The notes under the pieces: model-generated
Seen by the model: only the letters and a program-made list of their open reading frames with translations
Databases searched by the model: none
Told to the model about the DNA's origin: nothing
Part shown: positions 1 through 43,033 of the stretch, piece by piece
Position numbering within the stretch: position 1 is the first letter of the stretch
Layout of the letters: every line of letters begins with the position of its first letter
Source of the DNA: a virus
Length of the DNA stretch: 44,405 nt
Virus record (IMG/VR): IMGVR_UViG_3300045996_004589
Location: 1 to 44,405 of that record
Reading direction: 5' to 3' (one strand)
Made by a program: the position numbers and the translations under genes

Positions 1-960
1 TTAGCCTACTTTTTTGATCGCGTCGGCCAGCGTGCCGCGCACCAGGTGCGCATAGCGCTCGGTCGTTTTCTTGTCCTTGTGGCCGAGAATCCCGCCCACA
101 GTGTACAGCTCCACGCCGTTGTTCACCATCTCGCTCGCCGTGCTGTGGCGCAGGTCGTGGAAATGCAGGTGCTTGAATCCGGCCTGATTCATCGCCGCGC
201 GCACGTGCTTCTCCAGCCAGGACCGGCTCCAGGTGAAAGGCAGGTACCGCACCAGCACACGGATGCGCGGGTGCATTGGAACGAACCGGCGTTCACCATT
301 CTTGGTGTCGTCCAGGATGAAGCCGTCGTCGTGGATCTGGCCGCCTTTGCCCAGGCTCAGGACCTCACCCAGGCGCATGCCCGAGTAGAAGGCGATGCGC
401 ACTAGCGCCCTGCCCTCCTTGTCAGTGCACGCGCGCGCGATCTTGAGCATATCGGCGCGGCCGGCGTAATGGTGGCGCGCGTTGCGGACGGTGGGCATGG
501 CCAGCTCGTAAAGTTCGTTCCGGTCGCCGAGGCCGTGCTTCTTCTTGGCGTAGTTGCAGGCGGCGCGCAGGTAGGAAAGCCTGGCCTTGAGCGTGGCTGG
601 CGACCACGAGGTCTCGGTGTCGATGATTTCCTTGGCGACGTCCGCCAGTTCATCCAGGTACCGGCCATCGAAGTAGCCGTGAATGAGCGCCAGTTCCTGG
701 ATGATTTCGTTGCCGGTCTTGAGTTCCGGGCAGCGGTAGTAGGCGTAGAGGTCGACCGCCTTCTGTATGAGGATGCGTGCCTTTATGGCACCAGACGCAA
801 CGCCGTAGAGCCTGGCGGTTTCGGCTTGCTCGAACGCTTGGGCTTCGTCGCGACCCCAAGCTTCTGGAAGCAGTTTTGAGGCGCGGACACGTTGGCCCTG
901 GATGACCTTGTTGAATTCATATCGCCAGCGACGGTTGCGCTTATCGTAACGGATCGGCAT
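1..960 (-). CDS. int: Tyrosine-recombinase integrase
   Basis: This site-specific recombinase would insert and excise the phage, here presumably at tRNA-Ser. The C-terminal half carries the tyrosine-recombinase signature: the first Arg in FYSGMRLGEVL, HDLRH giving His-x-x-Arg, LGH, and the nucleophile Tyr in TTERYAHL. The N-terminal MPIRYDKRNRRWRYEF stretch looks like the arm-binding start of this family, so I start at 960 (319 aa); an in-frame ATG at 1026 would add 22 residues with no family-like features. There is no good Shine-Dalgarno at 960, and expression may rely on coupling to the overlapping excisionase. The first 178 nt also encode the excisionase C-terminus in another frame. The gene is complete and ends exactly at base 1. 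Confidence 0.93.
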   Translation of the reverse strand: MPIRYDKRNRRWRYEFNKVIQGQRVRASKLLPEAWGRDEAQAFEQAETARLYGVASGAIKARILIQKAVDLYAYYRCPELKTGNEIIQELALIHGYFDGRYLDELADVAKEIIDTETSWSPATLKARLSYLRAACNYAKKKHGLGDRNELYELAMPTVRNARHHYAGRADMLKIARACTDKEGRALVRIAFYSGMRLGEVLSLGKGGQIHDDGFILDDTKNGERRFVPMHPRIRVLVRYLPFTWSRSWLEKHVRAAMNQAGFKHLHFHDLRHSTASEMVNNGVELYTVGGILGHKDKKTTERYAHLVRGTLADAIKKVG

Positions 961-1121
961 TTGTTTTTGTAATCGAGAATATCTTGCACTTCGAATCGGA
1001 TGCATTTCCGGCCCATTCGGTAGCAAGGAATGGGGCCGGCGGGCGCCGCCAGGTCATACATTGTACGATGGTCAATGCCCAGCATATCGGCTGCTGCTTT
1101 TGCGTTGATCATCCCCATCAT
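783..1121 (-). CDS. Excisionase-like (AlpA/MerR-type HTH) DNA-binding protein
   Basis: This 112-aa protein begins with a winged-helix/HTH segment of the excisionase-AlpA type: NAKAAADMLGIDHRTMYDL, then GPIPCYRMGRKCIRFE and a DILDYK ending. It probably directs integrase toward excision and may regulate the left operon. Its start overlaps the stop of the preceding gene by four bases (1118-1121, ATGA), indicating translational coupling. The C-terminal 59 codons lie inside int in another frame. I keep the full length because the tail (FQKLG...PKP...STALRLV) resembles, as I recall, tails of other phage excisionase-like proteins. The alternative is that only about the first 60 residues matter and the rest is read-through of int DNA. 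Confidence 0.75.
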   Translation of the reverse strand: MMGMINAKAAADMLGIDHRTMYDLAAPAGPIPCYRMGRKCIRFEVQDILDYKNKCRSVTISATVAGDMNSTRSSRANVSAPQNCFQKLGVATKPKRSSKPKPPGSTALRLVP

Positions 1122-11030: not shown

Positions 11031-11059
11031 ATCCTATACCAGAAAAACTAGCAATGCAA
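11031..11059 (-). promoter_or_regulatory. Leftward early promoter (pL-like) with operator in spacer
   Basis: On the minus strand I see a -35 TTGCAT (11054-11059), a 17-nt spacer and a -10 TAGGAT (11031-11036). Inside the spacer lies CTAG-TTTTT-CTGG (11039-11051), an operator-like repeat nearly identical to those at the repressor/cro promoters. It drives the gene starting at 10993 and probably the whole left operon. Repressor binding there would block RNA polymerase. Confidence 0.65.
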
Positions 11060-11168: not shown

Positions 11169-11187
11169 AAGTGGAGGTGATCCACTT
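11169..11187 (+). promoter_or_regulatory. Inverted repeat around ribosome site of RHH gene
   Basis: AAGTGGA and TCCACTT form a perfect seven-base inverted repeat with a five-nt centre (GGTGA). The near-perfect Shine-Dalgarno GGAGGTGATC (11173-11182) lies across the left arm and loop. The element could be a DNA operator for the encoded protein, or an RNA hairpin that hides the ribosome site. Confidence 0.55.
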
Positions 11188-11425
11188 GCACAATTGCCGG
11201 ATGAGCAAAATCAAGAAAGTGGACTACTCGGCGATGACGCTGCGCTTGCCGAGAGAGATGATGAGCAGGCTCGACGCGGCGGCCGAGCACAACGGGCGAA
11301 CGAGATCAGATGAAATTCGAGCGCGCCTGGAGGCTTCGCCCACGGACGAACGCCTCGGCGCGGTAGAGCGCGAGCTCCAGGAAATGAAGGGGATGCTGCG
11401 GAAGTTGCTCGATGCCGCCGGATGA
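11186..11425 (+). CDS. Arc-like ribbon-helix-helix repressor
   Basis: A short DNA-binding protein. The segment YSAMTLRLPREMMSRLDAAA then NGRTRSDEIRARLEA is a classic ribbon-helix-helix: strand (MTLRLP), helix A, turn (HNGRTRSDE) and helix B. The C-terminal helix (AVERELQEMKGMLRKLLDAA) looks like a coiled coil for oligomerisation. I prefer TTG at 11186 because an almost perfect ribosome site lies eight nt upstream; the ATG at 11201 has no ribosome site close by and would give a shorter protein (74 aa instead of 79). Lone rightward gene between the pL-like promoter and the immunity gene; probably autoregulatory and active in the lysogen. Confidence 0.82.
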   Translation: MHNCRMSKIKKVDYSAMTLRLPREMMSRLDAAAEHNGRTRSDEIRARLEASPTDERLGAVERELQEMKGMLRKLLDAAG

Positions 11426-12708: not shown

Positions 12709-12737
12709 ACTATGCCCGCTAGTTTTTCTAGCACCAA
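12709..12737 (-). promoter_or_regulatory. Repressor promoter (pRM-like) with operator in spacer
   Basis: On the minus strand: -35 TTGGTG (12732-12737), 17-nt spacer, -10 CATAGT (12709-12714), then six nt to the repressor ATG. The spacer contains the perfect inverted repeat CTAG-AAAAA-CTAG (12719-12731; extended to GCTAG...CTAGC). Binding here would shut off the repressor's own promoter. The predicted transcript starts at or next to the ATG. Confidence 0.6.
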
Positions 12738-12749
12738 CACATATTTTTC

Positions 12750-12777
12750 TTGCATCTGCTAGAAAAACTAGTAGAAT
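12750..12777 (+). promoter_or_regulatory. Rightward early promoter (pR-like) with operator in spacer
   Basis: -35 TTGCAT (12750-12755), 16-nt spacer, -10 TAGAAT (12772-12777; five of six consensus bases). The spacer holds CTAG-AAAAA-CTAG (12759-12771), a perfect inverted repeat. The cro-like ATG at 12785 lies seven nt after the -10 box, and no ribosome site is present, so this mRNA may also be leaderless. Confidence 0.68.
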
Positions 12778-12784
12778 GCGCCTT

Positions 12785-13021
12785 ATGGAGAAAACAGATT
12801 CGTCAAAAGCCTTAGGGAAAGCGATCGAGTGCTACCGCACCTTGAACGCCTTCGCCACGGCCCTCGGCGTTCCGTACCAGACCGTGCAGCAGTGGATGAA
12901 GAACGGCGTACCGGAAAAGTGGTGCGTCGAGATCGAAAAGCTCACGAGCGGCCAGGTGCGATGCGAAGAGCTGAACGACAAGGTGGACTGGTCTTATCTC
13001 CGTAACAGCCAAGCCGCATAG
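12785..13021 (+). CDS. Cro/YdaS-like HTH regulator
   Basis: A 78-aa protein with a YdaS/Cro-type helix-turn-helix: KALGKAIECYRTLNAFATAL, GVPYQTVQQWMKNG, VPEKWCVEIEKLTSGQVRCEEL. The fold and its place divergent from the repressor identify it as the Cro equivalent, which would act at the same CTAG-N5-CTAG operators and favour lytic growth. An in-frame ATG at 12776 lies inside the predicted -10 box and cannot be used by that promoter, so I start at 12785. No ribosome site precedes it. Confidence 0.87.
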   Translation: MEKTDSSKALGKAIECYRTLNAFATALGVPYQTVQQWMKNGVPEKWCVEIEKLTSGQVRCEELNDKVDWSYLRNSQAA

Positions 13022-14694: not shown

Positions 14695-14883
14695 ATGATC
14701 CATTCCATCGTAACCATCGTAACCATCGAGGCCATTCAGGCCAAAGCGCGCGCCGCGCACGCCGCCGGCGCCGGCCGTGACGATCACGAGATGAACTGGC
14801 ACTCCCCTGCCCTGGCCACCTGGCAGGAAGAGTGGGACCGCTGCGAAGCGGCCAAAATCAACGCCGAGGCGCTGGTGGCATGA
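14695..14883 (+). CDS. Small phage protein (weakly RMF-like)
   Basis: A 62-aa protein starting three bases after the previous stop and overlapping the methyltransferase start by four bases (ATGA, 14880-14883). After a hydrophobic start (MIHSIVTIVTIEAIQA) it has AHAAGAG and NWHSPALATWQEEWDRCEAA. Such G/N-P-W-W arrangements occur in short phage proteins related to ribosome-modulation factor, but the match is weak. Its coupling to the methyltransferase suggests the two are made together. Confidence 0.65.
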   Translation: MIHSIVTIVTIEAIQAKARAAHAAGAGRDDHEMNWHSPALATWQEEWDRCEAAKINAEALVA

Positions 14884-16817
14884 GGCGCGACGAATTCACG
14901 CTCGCCCTGGACCTGGGCAACGAGCTGATCATCGACAACTTCGCCGGCGGCGGCGGCACGAGCACCGGCCTGGAAGCCGCCTTCGGGCGCCCGGTCGACA
15001 TCGCGATCAACCACGACCCCGAAGCCCTGGCGATGCACGCCATCAACCACCCTCACACGAAGCACCTGTGCGAAAGCGTGTGGGACATCGACCCGATTGA
15101 GGTCACCGGCAATCGCCCAGTCGGCCTGGTCTGGCTCTCCCCGGACTGCAAGCACTTCAGCAAGGCCAAGGGCGGCAAACCCGTCGAAAAGCGGATTCGC
15201 GGCCTGGCCTGGGTGACGTTGCGCTGGGCGGCCAAGTGCAAGCCCCGCGTCATCATGCTGGAAAACGTCGAGGAGTTCAAAACCTGGGGCCCGCTGCTGG
15301 TCGATGCCGACGGCACGGCGCGGCCGGACCCTGCAAAGCGCGGCAAGACCTTCGAAAGCTTCATCCGCCAGCTGCGCGGCCACGGCTACTCCGTGGATTA
15401 CCGCGAGTTGCGCGCCAGCGACTACAACACCCCCACGATCCGCAAGCGGTTCTTCCTGGTCGCGCGCCGCGATGGCCTACCGATCTGCTGGCCGGAACAG
15501 ACCAACGGGGCGCCGACGTCGCCGGCCGTCCTGGCCGGGAAGCAGCGCCCATGGCGCACCGCGGCGGAATGCATCGACTGGTCCCTGCCCTGCCACAGCA
15601 TCTTCGAGCGCAAGAAGCCGCTGGCCGAGGCCACGCTGCGCCGGATTGCCAAAGGCATCATGCGTTACGTGGTTGAGGCGGACAAGCCGTTCATCGTCGG
15701 CCAGGGCGGCCCGATCTATTCCGGCAAGCCGGTGTCGACCGAGCAGCCACTCGGCACCCTGACCACCGAGAATCACCGATCACTGGTCGTGCCGAGCATT
15801 GTCCCGGTGACGCACCAGGGCGGCGACCGCAACGAATCGGTGCATGAACCATTCCGCACGATCACCGGCGCGCAGCGCGGCGAGAAGGCGCTGGCTGTGG
15901 CCACGCTGGTGCAGAGCGGATACGGGGAGCGTGACGGCCAGGCACCGCGCGCGCTGGACATCGAAAAGCCGCTGGGCACCGTCGTTGCCGGCGCCAGCAA
16001 GGCGGCGCTGGTAACCGCCTTCCTGAACGAGCACGCCAACGCCAGCAATCAGCGCGTGATGCCGGCCGACGAGCCGCTGCGCACTATCTGCGCCCAGGTG
16101 AAAGGCGGCCACTTCAGCATGGTGTCGGCGTCGCTGGTGGGCGTTGGCGGCCGCGCCGGTGACAGCCGCCCGCGCGGCGCCGACGAGCCGACCGCCACGA
16201 TCACGGCGAAAGGCGATACCGCGATTGCCACTGCATTCCTGGCGAAGCACTACACGGGTGTGGTTGGGTCGGATCTGGACGCCCCCATCGGCACCATCAC
16301 CTCGTCCGATCATCACAGCTTGGTCACAAGCAGCCTGGTCAAGCTCCGCGGCACCAGCACGGCGGCTGGCCTGGAAGAACCGCTCCACACGGTCAGCGCC
16401 GGCGGACAGCACCACGCTGAGGTGAGGGCCTTCCTGCTGGCCTATTACGGTCAGGAGCAGTCTCAAGGCGTCGATGGTCCTCTCGCTACGGTCACCAGCC
16501 GGGACCGTTTCGGCCTGGTCACCATCAGCGGCCAGGACTACCAGATTGTGGACATCGGCCTTCGCATGCTGGCGCCTCACGAGCTGTACGCAGCCCAGGG
16601 CTTCCCCAAGCACTACATCATCGACGAAATCCCTGATCCGGCCCTGCTGTTCAAGGACGGGCACCAGGCCGAGGGCGACCCGCTGGCCCTGCCGCGCGTG
16701 CCGCTCACGAAGTCGGCCCAGGTGCGCATGTGCGGCAACAGCGTGTGCCCTCCCCTGTCAGAGGCGCTGGTGCGCGCGAACTTCGTGCACGAGCACCAGA
16801 TTGCGAGGGTGGCATGA
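14880..16817 (+). CDS. DNA cytosine-C5 methyltransferase with eight-repeat target region
   Basis: A 645-aa C5-cytosine methyltransferase. Motif I is DNFAGGGGTSTGLEAAFG (residues 19-36), motif IV holds the catalytic Cys90 in SPDCKHFS (an unusual SPDC in place of PPC), motif VI is ENVEEF (128-133), motif VIII includes RKRFFLVARR, and motifs IX-X are MLAPHELYAAQGFP and MCGNSVCPPLSEAL. Between residues about 285 and 555 a 32-40 residue unit with the core EPLGTITA...LVTAFL is repeated eight times; this replaces a normal target-recognition domain. The enzyme probably protects phage DNA from host restriction; no restriction partner is encoded nearby. It starts by ATGA overlap with the previous gene. 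Confidence 0.93.
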   Translation: MRRDEFTLALDLGNELIIDNFAGGGGTSTGLEAAFGRPVDIAINHDPEALAMHAINHPHTKHLCESVWDIDPIEVTGNRPVGLVWLSPDCKHFSKAKGGKPVEKRIRGLAWVTLRWAAKCKPRVIMLENVEEFKTWGPLLVDADGTARPDPAKRGKTFESFIRQLRGHGYSVDYRELRASDYNTPTIRKRFFLVARRDGLPICWPEQTNGAPTSPAVLAGKQRPWRTAAECIDWSLPCHSIFERKKPLAEATLRRIAKGIMRYVVEADKPFIVGQGGPIYSGKPVSTEQPLGTLTTENHRSLVVPSIVPVTHQGGDRNESVHEPFRTITGAQRGEKALAVATLVQSGYGERDGQAPRALDIEKPLGTVVAGASKAALVTAFLNEHANASNQRVMPADEPLRTICAQVKGGHFSMVSASLVGVGGRAGDSRPRGADEPTATITAKGDTAIATAFLAKHYTGVVGSDLDAPIGTITSSDHHSLVTSSLVKLRGTSTAAGLEEPLHTVSAGGQHHAEVRAFLLAYYGQEQSQGVDGPLATVTSRDRFGLVTISGQDYQIVDIGLRMLAPHELYAAQGFPKHYIIDEIPDPALLFKDGHQAEGDPLALPRVPLTKSAQVRMCGNSVCPPLSEALVRANFVHEHQIARVA

Positions 16818-41559: not shown

Positions 41560-42014
41560 GCACCCAACTGACTGCCTTCCTGGATATGATCGCCTGGAGT
41601 GAAATCGGCCCGGCGCTGCTCGCCAAGAGCGACCGCGGCTATAACGTGTGCGTCGGGTCGAGCCCACAGAAGCCGATCCTTTTCAACAGCTACGCCACCC
41701 ATCCGCGCATTCGTAGCGAGACCCATAACAGCGATGCAGCCGGCCGCTACCAGTTCATGGGGCGCTACTGGGATCATTACCGCAAGCAGCTCAAGCTCGC
41801 CGACTTCAGCCCTATCTCGCAGGATAAGTGGGCGGTGCAGCTTATCCGTGAATGCGGCGCGCTTGAGGACATCGAAGTTGGCTGGTTTGACGTGGCCGTA
41901 CACAAGTGCCGGAGCCGCTGGGCCAGCCTGCCAGGCGCCGGCTACGGCCAGCGTGAGAACAAGCTGGCCGACCTGCGCAAGGTATTTGTCGCCGCCGGCG
42001 GGAGGATCGTATGA
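41556..42014 (+). CDS. Endolysin, lambda R-like transglycosylase
   Basis: A 152-aa muralytic enzyme. FLDMIAWSEIG contains the catalytic Glu (about residue 16), YNVCVGSSPQKPILFNSYAT and HPRIRSETHNSDAAGRYQFM are typical of the lambda R-type lytic transglycosylase, as is WDHYRKQLKL. There is no signal sequence, so it depends on the holin. The start is TTG at 41556, overlapping the holin stop and preceded by AAGGAGGT at five nt. It overlaps the Rz gene by four bases. Confidence 0.92.
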   Translation: MSTQLTAFLDMIAWSEIGPALLAKSDRGYNVCVGSSPQKPILFNSYATHPRIRSETHNSDAAGRYQFMGRYWDHYRKQLKLADFSPISQDKWAVQLIRECGALEDIEVGWFDVAVHKCRSRWASLPGAGYGQRENKLADLRKVFVAAGGRIV

Positions 42015-42505
42015 ACCTGATCAACGCCATCCCCGCGCCCTATCGTCTTGGGCTTCTGGCCCTGTCGGCTGCCGCCCTGGTGGCGATCGCGTGGGCGAAG
42101 GGCGCGCAGCACGTCCAGGCAAAGTGGGACGCTGCCGAAGGCGCGCGCGCGCGCGCCGAGGCATCCGCTGTACTGGCGCGCATTGCCGAGAACAAGGTTG
42201 AGGCGGCCCGGCAGGCTGCGGCGAACCGGAAAATTACCGAAAGGAAAGACAATGAAATTGCTGAACTTACTGCTCGGCTCAATGCTGCTGGCCGGCTGCG
42301 CGTCGGCTCCGCCATCTGTGGTGGACCTCCCGGCGCCACCCAAGCCGACCTTCCCGGCCGCGGCGATGGCGCCGATTCATCCGCCGGGCTGGTTCGAGAA
42401 GACGTTGACCGAGATCTTAAAGCGCTGATTCTGGCCGTAGAAACCGACTTGGCCACCGGCCGCGCGTGCCAGGCTGCTGCGCGCGACCACGGGCTGGCGC
42501 AATAG
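42011..42505 (+). CDS. Rz: Inner-membrane spanin (Rz-like)
   Basis: A 164-aa i-spanin. One N-terminal membrane helix (YRLGLLALSAAALVAIAWA) is followed by a long periplasmic coiled coil (HVQAKWDAAEGARARAEASA, NRKITERKDNEIAELTARLN) and a C-terminal globular part with Cys residues and a final helix (LILAVETDLATGRACQAAAR). With Rz1 it fuses inner and outer membranes in the last lysis step. It starts by ATGA overlap and contains the whole Rz1 gene in the +1 frame. Its stop TAG directly abuts the stop of the convergent gene. Confidence 0.9.
   Translation: MNLINAIPAPYRLGLLALSAAALVAIAWAKGAQHVQAKWDAAEGARARAEASAVLARIAENKVEAARQAAANRKITERKDNEIAELTARLNAAGRLRVGSAICGGPPGATQADLPGRGDGADSSAGLVREDVDRDLKALILAVETDLATGRACQAAARDHGLAQ
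42252..42428 (+). CDS. Rz1: Outer-membrane spanin lipoprotein (Rz1-like), embedded in Rz
   Basis: A 58-aa lipoprotein fully inside the Rz gene in another frame. The signal peptide MKLLNLLLGSMLLAGCAS has a perfect lipobox (LAGC, Cys16). The mature 43 residues are Pro-rich (SAPPSVVDLPAPPKPTFPAA). It has its own ribosome site, AAAGGAAAG, three to eleven nt upstream of the ATG. This embedded arrangement is the same as lambda Rz/Rz1. Confidence 0.93.
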   Translation: MKLLNLLLGSMLLAGCASAPPSVVDLPAPPKPTFPAAAMAPIHPPGWFEKTLTEILKR

Positions 42506-42808
42506 TCACTGCCCGGCTTCTCCCGCCGGAGGCGGGCCGTCGTGGAACGTGATCTCCCACATCTGCTGGACAGGACCATTCTTCCCTTGCTGCCACCCCT
42601 TCCAGTTCTGTCGGTTGCGGAAGAAGCCGACGCACTCCGCAAACCACAACGTCGGGAGCAGCTTGCCCTGCTGCCCGTTGCCCGGGCTGACGACCAGGCG
42701 GGGCTGTTCGTTCCACCAGTGCATGGTCACCTCGCCATAGACGCCGGGCCCCGCGTTGCGGAGCTCCTTCCCGTCTTTCATCAATTCGCGGACTTGGATA
42801 CTGTACAT
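42506..42808 (-). CDS. LexA-controlled small protein at prophage right end
   Basis: A 100-aa protein encoded convergently to the lysis genes. It starts MYSIQVRELMKDGKELRNAG, continues VYGEVTMHWWNEQPRLVV, and has an aromatic core (LPTLWFAECVGFFRNRQNW, KGWQQGKNGPVQQMWEITF). Five Trp in 100 residues is unusual. I believe related proteins occur in other betaproteobacterial prophages; no function is known to me. The ATG at 42808 lies inside a perfect LexA box and six nt after TATACT, so the mRNA may be leaderless. The open frame continues upstream through the tRNA gene, which is not coding. Induced by DNA damage by inference; an antirepressor role is a hypothesis. Confidence 0.8.
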   Translation of the reverse strand: MYSIQVRELMKDGKELRNAGPGVYGEVTMHWWNEQPRLVVSPGNGQQGKLLPTLWFAECVGFFRNRQNWKGWQQGKNGPVQQMWEITFHDGPPPAGEAGQ

Positions 42809-42820
42809 GCATACAGTATA
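42799..42820 (-). promoter_or_regulatory. LexA (SOS) box overlapping promoter -10 and start codon
   Basis: TACTGTACATGCATACAGTA (42799-42818) has perfect seven-base arms and matches CTGT-N8-ACAG, the LexA consensus of gamma- and betaproteobacteria. On the minus strand it overlaps a good -10, TATACT (42815-42820), and contains the ATG (42806-42808). LexA binding would block transcription of the 100-aa gene until DNA damage. Confidence 0.88.
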
Positions 42821-42885
42821 GCGCAGCTGGTGAGCCGGCGGTAGCGCCAGGCGGCCCTGCATAAATGGCAAAAAAATCCGCACAA

Positions 42886-42916
42886 AACAAAAAAGCCACC
42901 GGGTTTCGGTGGCTTT
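42886..42916 (-). terminator. Intrinsic terminator downstream of tRNA-Ser
   Basis: Reading the minus strand: AAAGCCACC, seven-nt loop, GGTGGCTTTTTTG, a nine-base-pair stem with U-tract. It ends the tRNA-Ser transcript. As it lies on the phage side of the tRNA 3' end, it is probably supplied by the phage. It uses the same stem arms as the terminator at 20156-20185. Confidence 0.85.
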
Positions 42917-42942
42917 CAGGATGACGTAAGTCATTGAATTCA

Positions 42943-43033
<91 letters not shown>

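Follow-up and report, generated by a model that had tools for sequence, protein, structure and literature searches.

Small LexA-controlled genes lying outside the immunity region of phages whose repressor has no cleavage domain have been described for Tum (phage 186), AntC (N15) and GfoA/GftA (Gifsy; PMC3121763). The LexA-controlled unit of Gifsy also includes homologues of dinI and irsA that are not required for induction (PMC3121763), a precedent that warns against equating LexA control with antirepression; DinI and irsA homologues are SOS-induced accessory genes of LexA-controlled prophage units in both Gifsy and Fels-2. SRAP (YedK/HMCES) and ImuB-C are SOS-associated families, of which ImuB-C is predicted to be mainly beta (Aravind et al. 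2013, PMC3765255). In addition, hypA and hypB have been predicted as LexA-regulated hypothetical genes of Betaproteobacteria (Burkholderiaceae/Comamonadaceae; PMC3323433).

The gene studied here, predicted to be under LexA control, resembles those encoding Tum, AntC and GfoA/GftA in its small size, its location outside the immunity region and the presence of a repressor without a cleavage domain. It differs from them in that its product shows no sequence or PHROG match to these proteins and is predicted to be all-beta, in that members of its family also accompany S24 repressors or sit in chromosomes without a phage, and in that it forms a single-gene unit at the att end. With the DinI and irsA homologues it shares the likely status of an SOS-induced prophage accessory gene, and with SRAP and ImuB-C that of a small beta-rich protein in an SOS context. 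The hypA and hypB genes are likewise predicted LexA-controlled hypotheticals, a parallel to the chromosomal clade of the family (below) that is drawn from descriptions and not from sequences.

The window analysed (44,405 nt) is an IMG/VR provirus record (IMGVR_UViG_3300045996_004589), a prophage of a soil bacterium of the Massilia group, and its relevant features are collected in Table 1. The gene, hereafter the SOS gene, and the Rz-like spanin gene are convergent and their stop codons abut (42505/42506), so that the SOS transcription unit consists of a single gene. Embedded in Rz in another frame is a probable Rz1 lipoprotein gene (42048-42428, plus strand; MKLLNLLLGSMLLAGCASAPP...).

Table 1. 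Coordinates of the features discussed, in window positions (strand: +, -, or. where none applies).
Feature	Position	Strand	Basis or remark
Tyrosine integrase (int)	1..1026	-	translation read; left end of prophage; adjoins attP junction in circle
HTH_17 gene, candidate excisionase	783-1121	-	overlaps int start
Lysogeny repressor, 146 aa	12262..12702	-	HTH_3 only, without S24 domain; DicA-like
Two exact CTAGAAAAACTAG repeats, candidate operators	12719..12771 (12719-12731, 12759-12771)	.	in 73-bp repressor/Cro-like gap
Cro-like gene (YdaS / P22 Cro families)	12776..13021	+	faces repressor
Terminase and portal	21-24 kb		
Lysis genes	up to 42505		followed by SOS gene, tRNA-Ser(CGA) and host serS
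Rz-like spanin	42011..42505	+	PHROG Rz-like spanin matches; end of lysis/late operon
Predicted SOS-controlled gene, 100 aa (MYSIQVRELMKDG...)	42506..42808	-	ORF, homologues, AlphaFold; predicted six-strand all-beta
Predicted LexA (SOS) box TACTGTACATGCATACAGTA	42799..42818	.	perfect CTGT-N8-ACAG core
Start codon, within LexA box	42806..42808	-	family similarity starts at MYS
-10 hexamer TATACT	42815..42820	-	sequence and conservation
26-bp repeat TGTGCGGATTTTTTTGCCATTTATGC, candidate integrase arm site	42859..42884	-	second copy on int side of attP
Terminator-like hairpin, phage-borne	42891..42917	-	between SOS gene and tRNA-Ser
tRNA-Ser(CGA)	42943..43033	-	42943-43002 common to circle, att core inside; att stretch up to 60 bp

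The excised form of this phage is represented by contig JAJTCO010000022.1 from a Pseudoduganella sp. MAG bin, the only gene-bearing contig found in the scan of genome contigs. It is 100% identical to window positions 1-43002 and links int to the SOS-gene end via 116 new bases; the contig ends overlap by 60 bp, so that it closes into a 43,118-bp circle containing attP (L002 8544-8730 against window 42859-43002). In the circle int lies upstream of the SOS gene and is co-oriented with it. On the chromosome of that MAG nothing occupies the tRNA-Ser site, and the serS genes of MAG and window share only 91% identity; the circle therefore possibly originates from virions or from another strain. The phage is mobile, and the circle demonstrates excision, not what caused it.

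An earlier note on this DNA had described the lysogeny repressor as lacking an S24 peptidase part and had placed the SOS gene 30 kb from the switch at the att end, and both statements were confirmed: HTH_3 is the sole domain of the 146-aa repressor, and the distance and the tRNA-Ser (att) position agree. One further copy of the candidate operator, with one mismatch to CTAGAAAAACTAG, was observed at 11039-11051, before a ribbon-helix-helix gene (11171-11425). Together with the two exact copies in the repressor/Cro-like gap it makes up a candidate operator set of the repressor.

The same note had reported a 20-bp SOS box with perfect arms that overlaps a TATACT -10 and holds the ATG of the SOS gene, and the coordinates in Table 1 bear this out. 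The exact CTGT-N8-ACAG core occurs once in the window, where the box is also the sole near-match to the 20-bp E. coli consensus (three mismatches; 0.00 matches expected in shuffled sequences). Read on the gene strand, the box region is TATACTGTATGCATGTACAGTA, which holds both the -10 and the ATG. Since the last base of the -10 lies seven positions ahead of the ATG, a spacing that is fixed in the family, and since the 28 aligned members show no consistent Shine-Dalgarno sequence, transcription is predicted to start at the ATG or 1-2 nt from it, and the mRNA is probably leaderless.

This arrangement is conserved across a divergent family. At the same offset, TATACT is found in 23 of the 28 aligned members; of the two half-sites, the non-coding one (CTGT) is present in 20 members and the coding one (ACAG) in 25. 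A perfect core keeps its position around the ATG in 19. In two members that have lost the embedded box it is replaced upstream, by a perfect box at 26 bp in G208 and by one box in G191, and three distant homologues (L114-L116, in G660 and G755) carry a box upstream of the homologous start. The host LexA motif was read from the MAG (G001), a relative and not the exact host strain: seven TACTGTN8ACAGTA sites were found, including those at splB-like, nadK-recN and imuA-imuB loci, and lexA itself has tandem boxes upstream. Because the position of the box is conserved, lost boxes are replaced upstream and matching boxes occur at these host-group loci, the LexA control proposed in the earlier note stands as a prediction, and on these sequence comparisons the gene is very probably under SOS control.

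Profile searches of three genome sets identified homologues: within the genus of the MAG they occur in 12 of 75 genomes (a count that takes in the two weakest matches, the doubtful or partial L022 and L023), within the family in 43 of 394, and in a sample drawn from the class in 3 of 369. With the single protein as query, no homologues were found among viral contigs, phages or plasmids, and divergent members as queries found none among phages and plasmids. Conserved residues comprise the initial MYS, DPG..G, an LLP.L stretch, a later glycine and QEW. Neither the window protein nor its relatives matched Pfam, PHROG, NCBIfam or PADLOC models or PDB sequences. AlphaFold predicts the window protein as a six-strand all-beta fold without helices (pLDDT 91), and a chromosomal member as the identical six strands plus one short helix (pLDDT 85). 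Foldseek searches of the PDB and of viral models gave no reliable relative; RanBD/PH-like and lipocalin-like matches were rejected (E 0.03 or worse, poor superposition). The DinI fold is alpha/beta, in contrast to the helix-free model of the window protein, and the DinI profile of Pfam matched none of 27 members. ImuB-C, which we take to be the family labelled DUF6504, was rejected as an identity for lack of a profile match: DUF6504 was not matched in family members and was also absent from ten host genomes.

In most cases the member is prophage cargo that sits beyond the lysis genes, where the late operon ends, directly behind holin, endolysin and Rz and bordering on host DNA. These cargo sites also contain HicB-like, HipA-like or Dam-like genes (named by eye from their translations). 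At five loci (L031, L032, L033, L036 and L089; the genus-level set accounts for four of them and a more distant member for one, and the member at L032 is broken) a SRAP (YedK) gene is divergent from the member. A monophyletic clade (support 100/99) from seven genomes occupies one chromosomal locus between metabolic genes, with an amidohydrolase and an ABC transporter as neighbours; no phage genes were found in the 10-20 kb read around it, and five of its seven members keep a perfect box.

Fourteen prophages were sorted by S24 searches and gene lists. A perfect box without an S24 repressor was found in the window, G017, G126, G049, G208 and the Mu-like prophages of G383 and G043, a perfect box with S24 in G070 and G045, and a lost or imperfect box with S24 in G148, G350, G304 and two prophages of G362; S24 was verified by single-protein Pfam searches for G070, G045, G148 and G350. 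The box was thus kept in 7/7 prophages without S24 and in 2/7 with it (Fisher p=0.021, uncorrected, framed post hoc and ignoring kinship; four of the five box-less prophages seem to form a single group). The MYG/TACACT group is otherwise box-less, and its one member from an S24-less prophage, G208, has the upstream box. Left out of the comparison were G328 (surroundings not phage) and G258 (start apparently lost), together with G257, G093, G067, G238, G293 and G351, which have contig ends or unclear borders. The family is not confined to phages with non-cleavable repressors, as S24 is present in seven member-carrying prophages and the chromosomal clade adds phage-free genomes: the gene is not tied to such repressors, though all examined S24-less prophages keep the box. 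In the S24-bearing prophages, the members with a lost or imperfect box run with the late operon; their products may appear late during lytic growth, a timing more in keeping with a host-directed protein than with an antirepressor. A comparison of the promoters of box-less members for phage-repressor operators gave no convincing common motif.

We propose that the SOS gene is accessory (moron-like) cargo of a functional temperate phage and that the SOS repressor of the host switches it, independently of the repressor that the phage itself encodes. As long as the lysogen is healthy, LexA bound to the palindrome over the -10 and the start codon would, to judge from the sequence, block transcription; DNA damage would remove LexA, RNA polymerase would start at the ATG or immediately beside it, and the leaderless mRNA would yield a small all-beta protein. 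This protein would act in the DNA-damage response of the host, in tolerance, repair or SOS modulation, and not specifically on the phage repressor. We give this reading of a host-directed, LexA-controlled damage-response protein a probability of about 0.5. It is favoured because LexA control of the family appears to be kept in phage-free chromosomes and next to repressors that cleave themselves, and because members are paired with SRAP in several cases. On the other hand, this pairing concerns a minority of members, the neighbours of the chromosomal clade are unrelated to repair, no domain, fold or literature match points to a repair function, and the presence of a box in every examined S24-less prophage hints at a role in induction.

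The earlier note had proposed such a role, namely that of an inducing antirepressor. Made upon damage, such a protein would bind the non-cleavable repressor and thereby trigger the prophage. For this phage the proposal keeps its footing, in that the repressor has no S24 domain and is DicA-like, as is the group of Gifsy repressors (PMC3121763), and that the gene carries the sole LexA box, 30 kb from the switch, much as the Gifsy unit is distant from the immunity region; the gene is thus the candidate if induction goes through LexA. The retention of the box in S24-less prophages (with the limits on the Fisher test given above), the upstream box of G208 and the excision of the phage also agree with it. 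As a role for the whole family, however, the explanation is weakened by the intact boxes beside S24 repressors in G070 and G045, by five more S24 prophages and by the seven phage-free chromosomes. Moreover, box-less members of late operons would come after the stage at which a repressor needs inactivating, one protein family would have to serve alongside very different repressors, those of Mu-like phages included, the Gifsy unit itself holds dispensable dinI and irsA homologues, and no PHROG, Pfam or NCBIfam similarity to modelled antirepressor families was found. Antirepression is a possible but rather unlikely function. An SOS-triggered inhibitor of growth or division (SulA/Kil-like), or another toxin that arrests or kills damaged host cells, appears unlikely as well: the small gene, its promoter, predicted to be tightly shut, and the HicB-like and HipA-like neighbours in other prophages, at typical cargo sites, would fit it, but toxin families of PADLOC, Pfam and NCBIfam were unmatched, a linked antitoxin is absent and the gene has long been retained in chromosomes. 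It is very improbable that the palindrome is free of LexA control and arose by chance or as a by-product of the conserved first codons (ATG TAC AGT). Its right half-site does lie within codons 2-3, but the left half-site is non-coding and still conserved in 20/28 members, against a chance of about 1/256 each, and boxes reappear upstream where the embedded one was lost.

The family, predicted to be LexA-controlled, is absent from all library models, yet occurs in about one in nine of the sampled genomes of the host family, and its operator is fused to a start that is probably leaderless. The gene is a concrete candidate for damage sensing by phages without a cleavable repressor. The occurrence of the same protein beside S24 repressors, beside non-S24 repressors and in phage-free chromosomes offers a natural comparison between service to the phage and service to the host. 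More speculatively, and in our judgement improbably, these genes may constitute a new all-beta SOS family of Burkholderiaceae, common to phages and hosts, with operator, -10 and start codon fused in one 22-bp element, which alongside non-cleavable repressors became or remained the link from damage to induction, as a structurally new class of antirepressor.

An orphan C5-cytosine DNA methylase gene (661 aa) lies in the early region of the window (14832-16817), and a similar gene is present in the G049 prophage. In a Mu-like prophage, at the member L136 (G383:C1:467456), a second small ORF begins with TATACTGAATATATTTGTATGTACAGC, a start that resembles the fused layout with an imperfect box.
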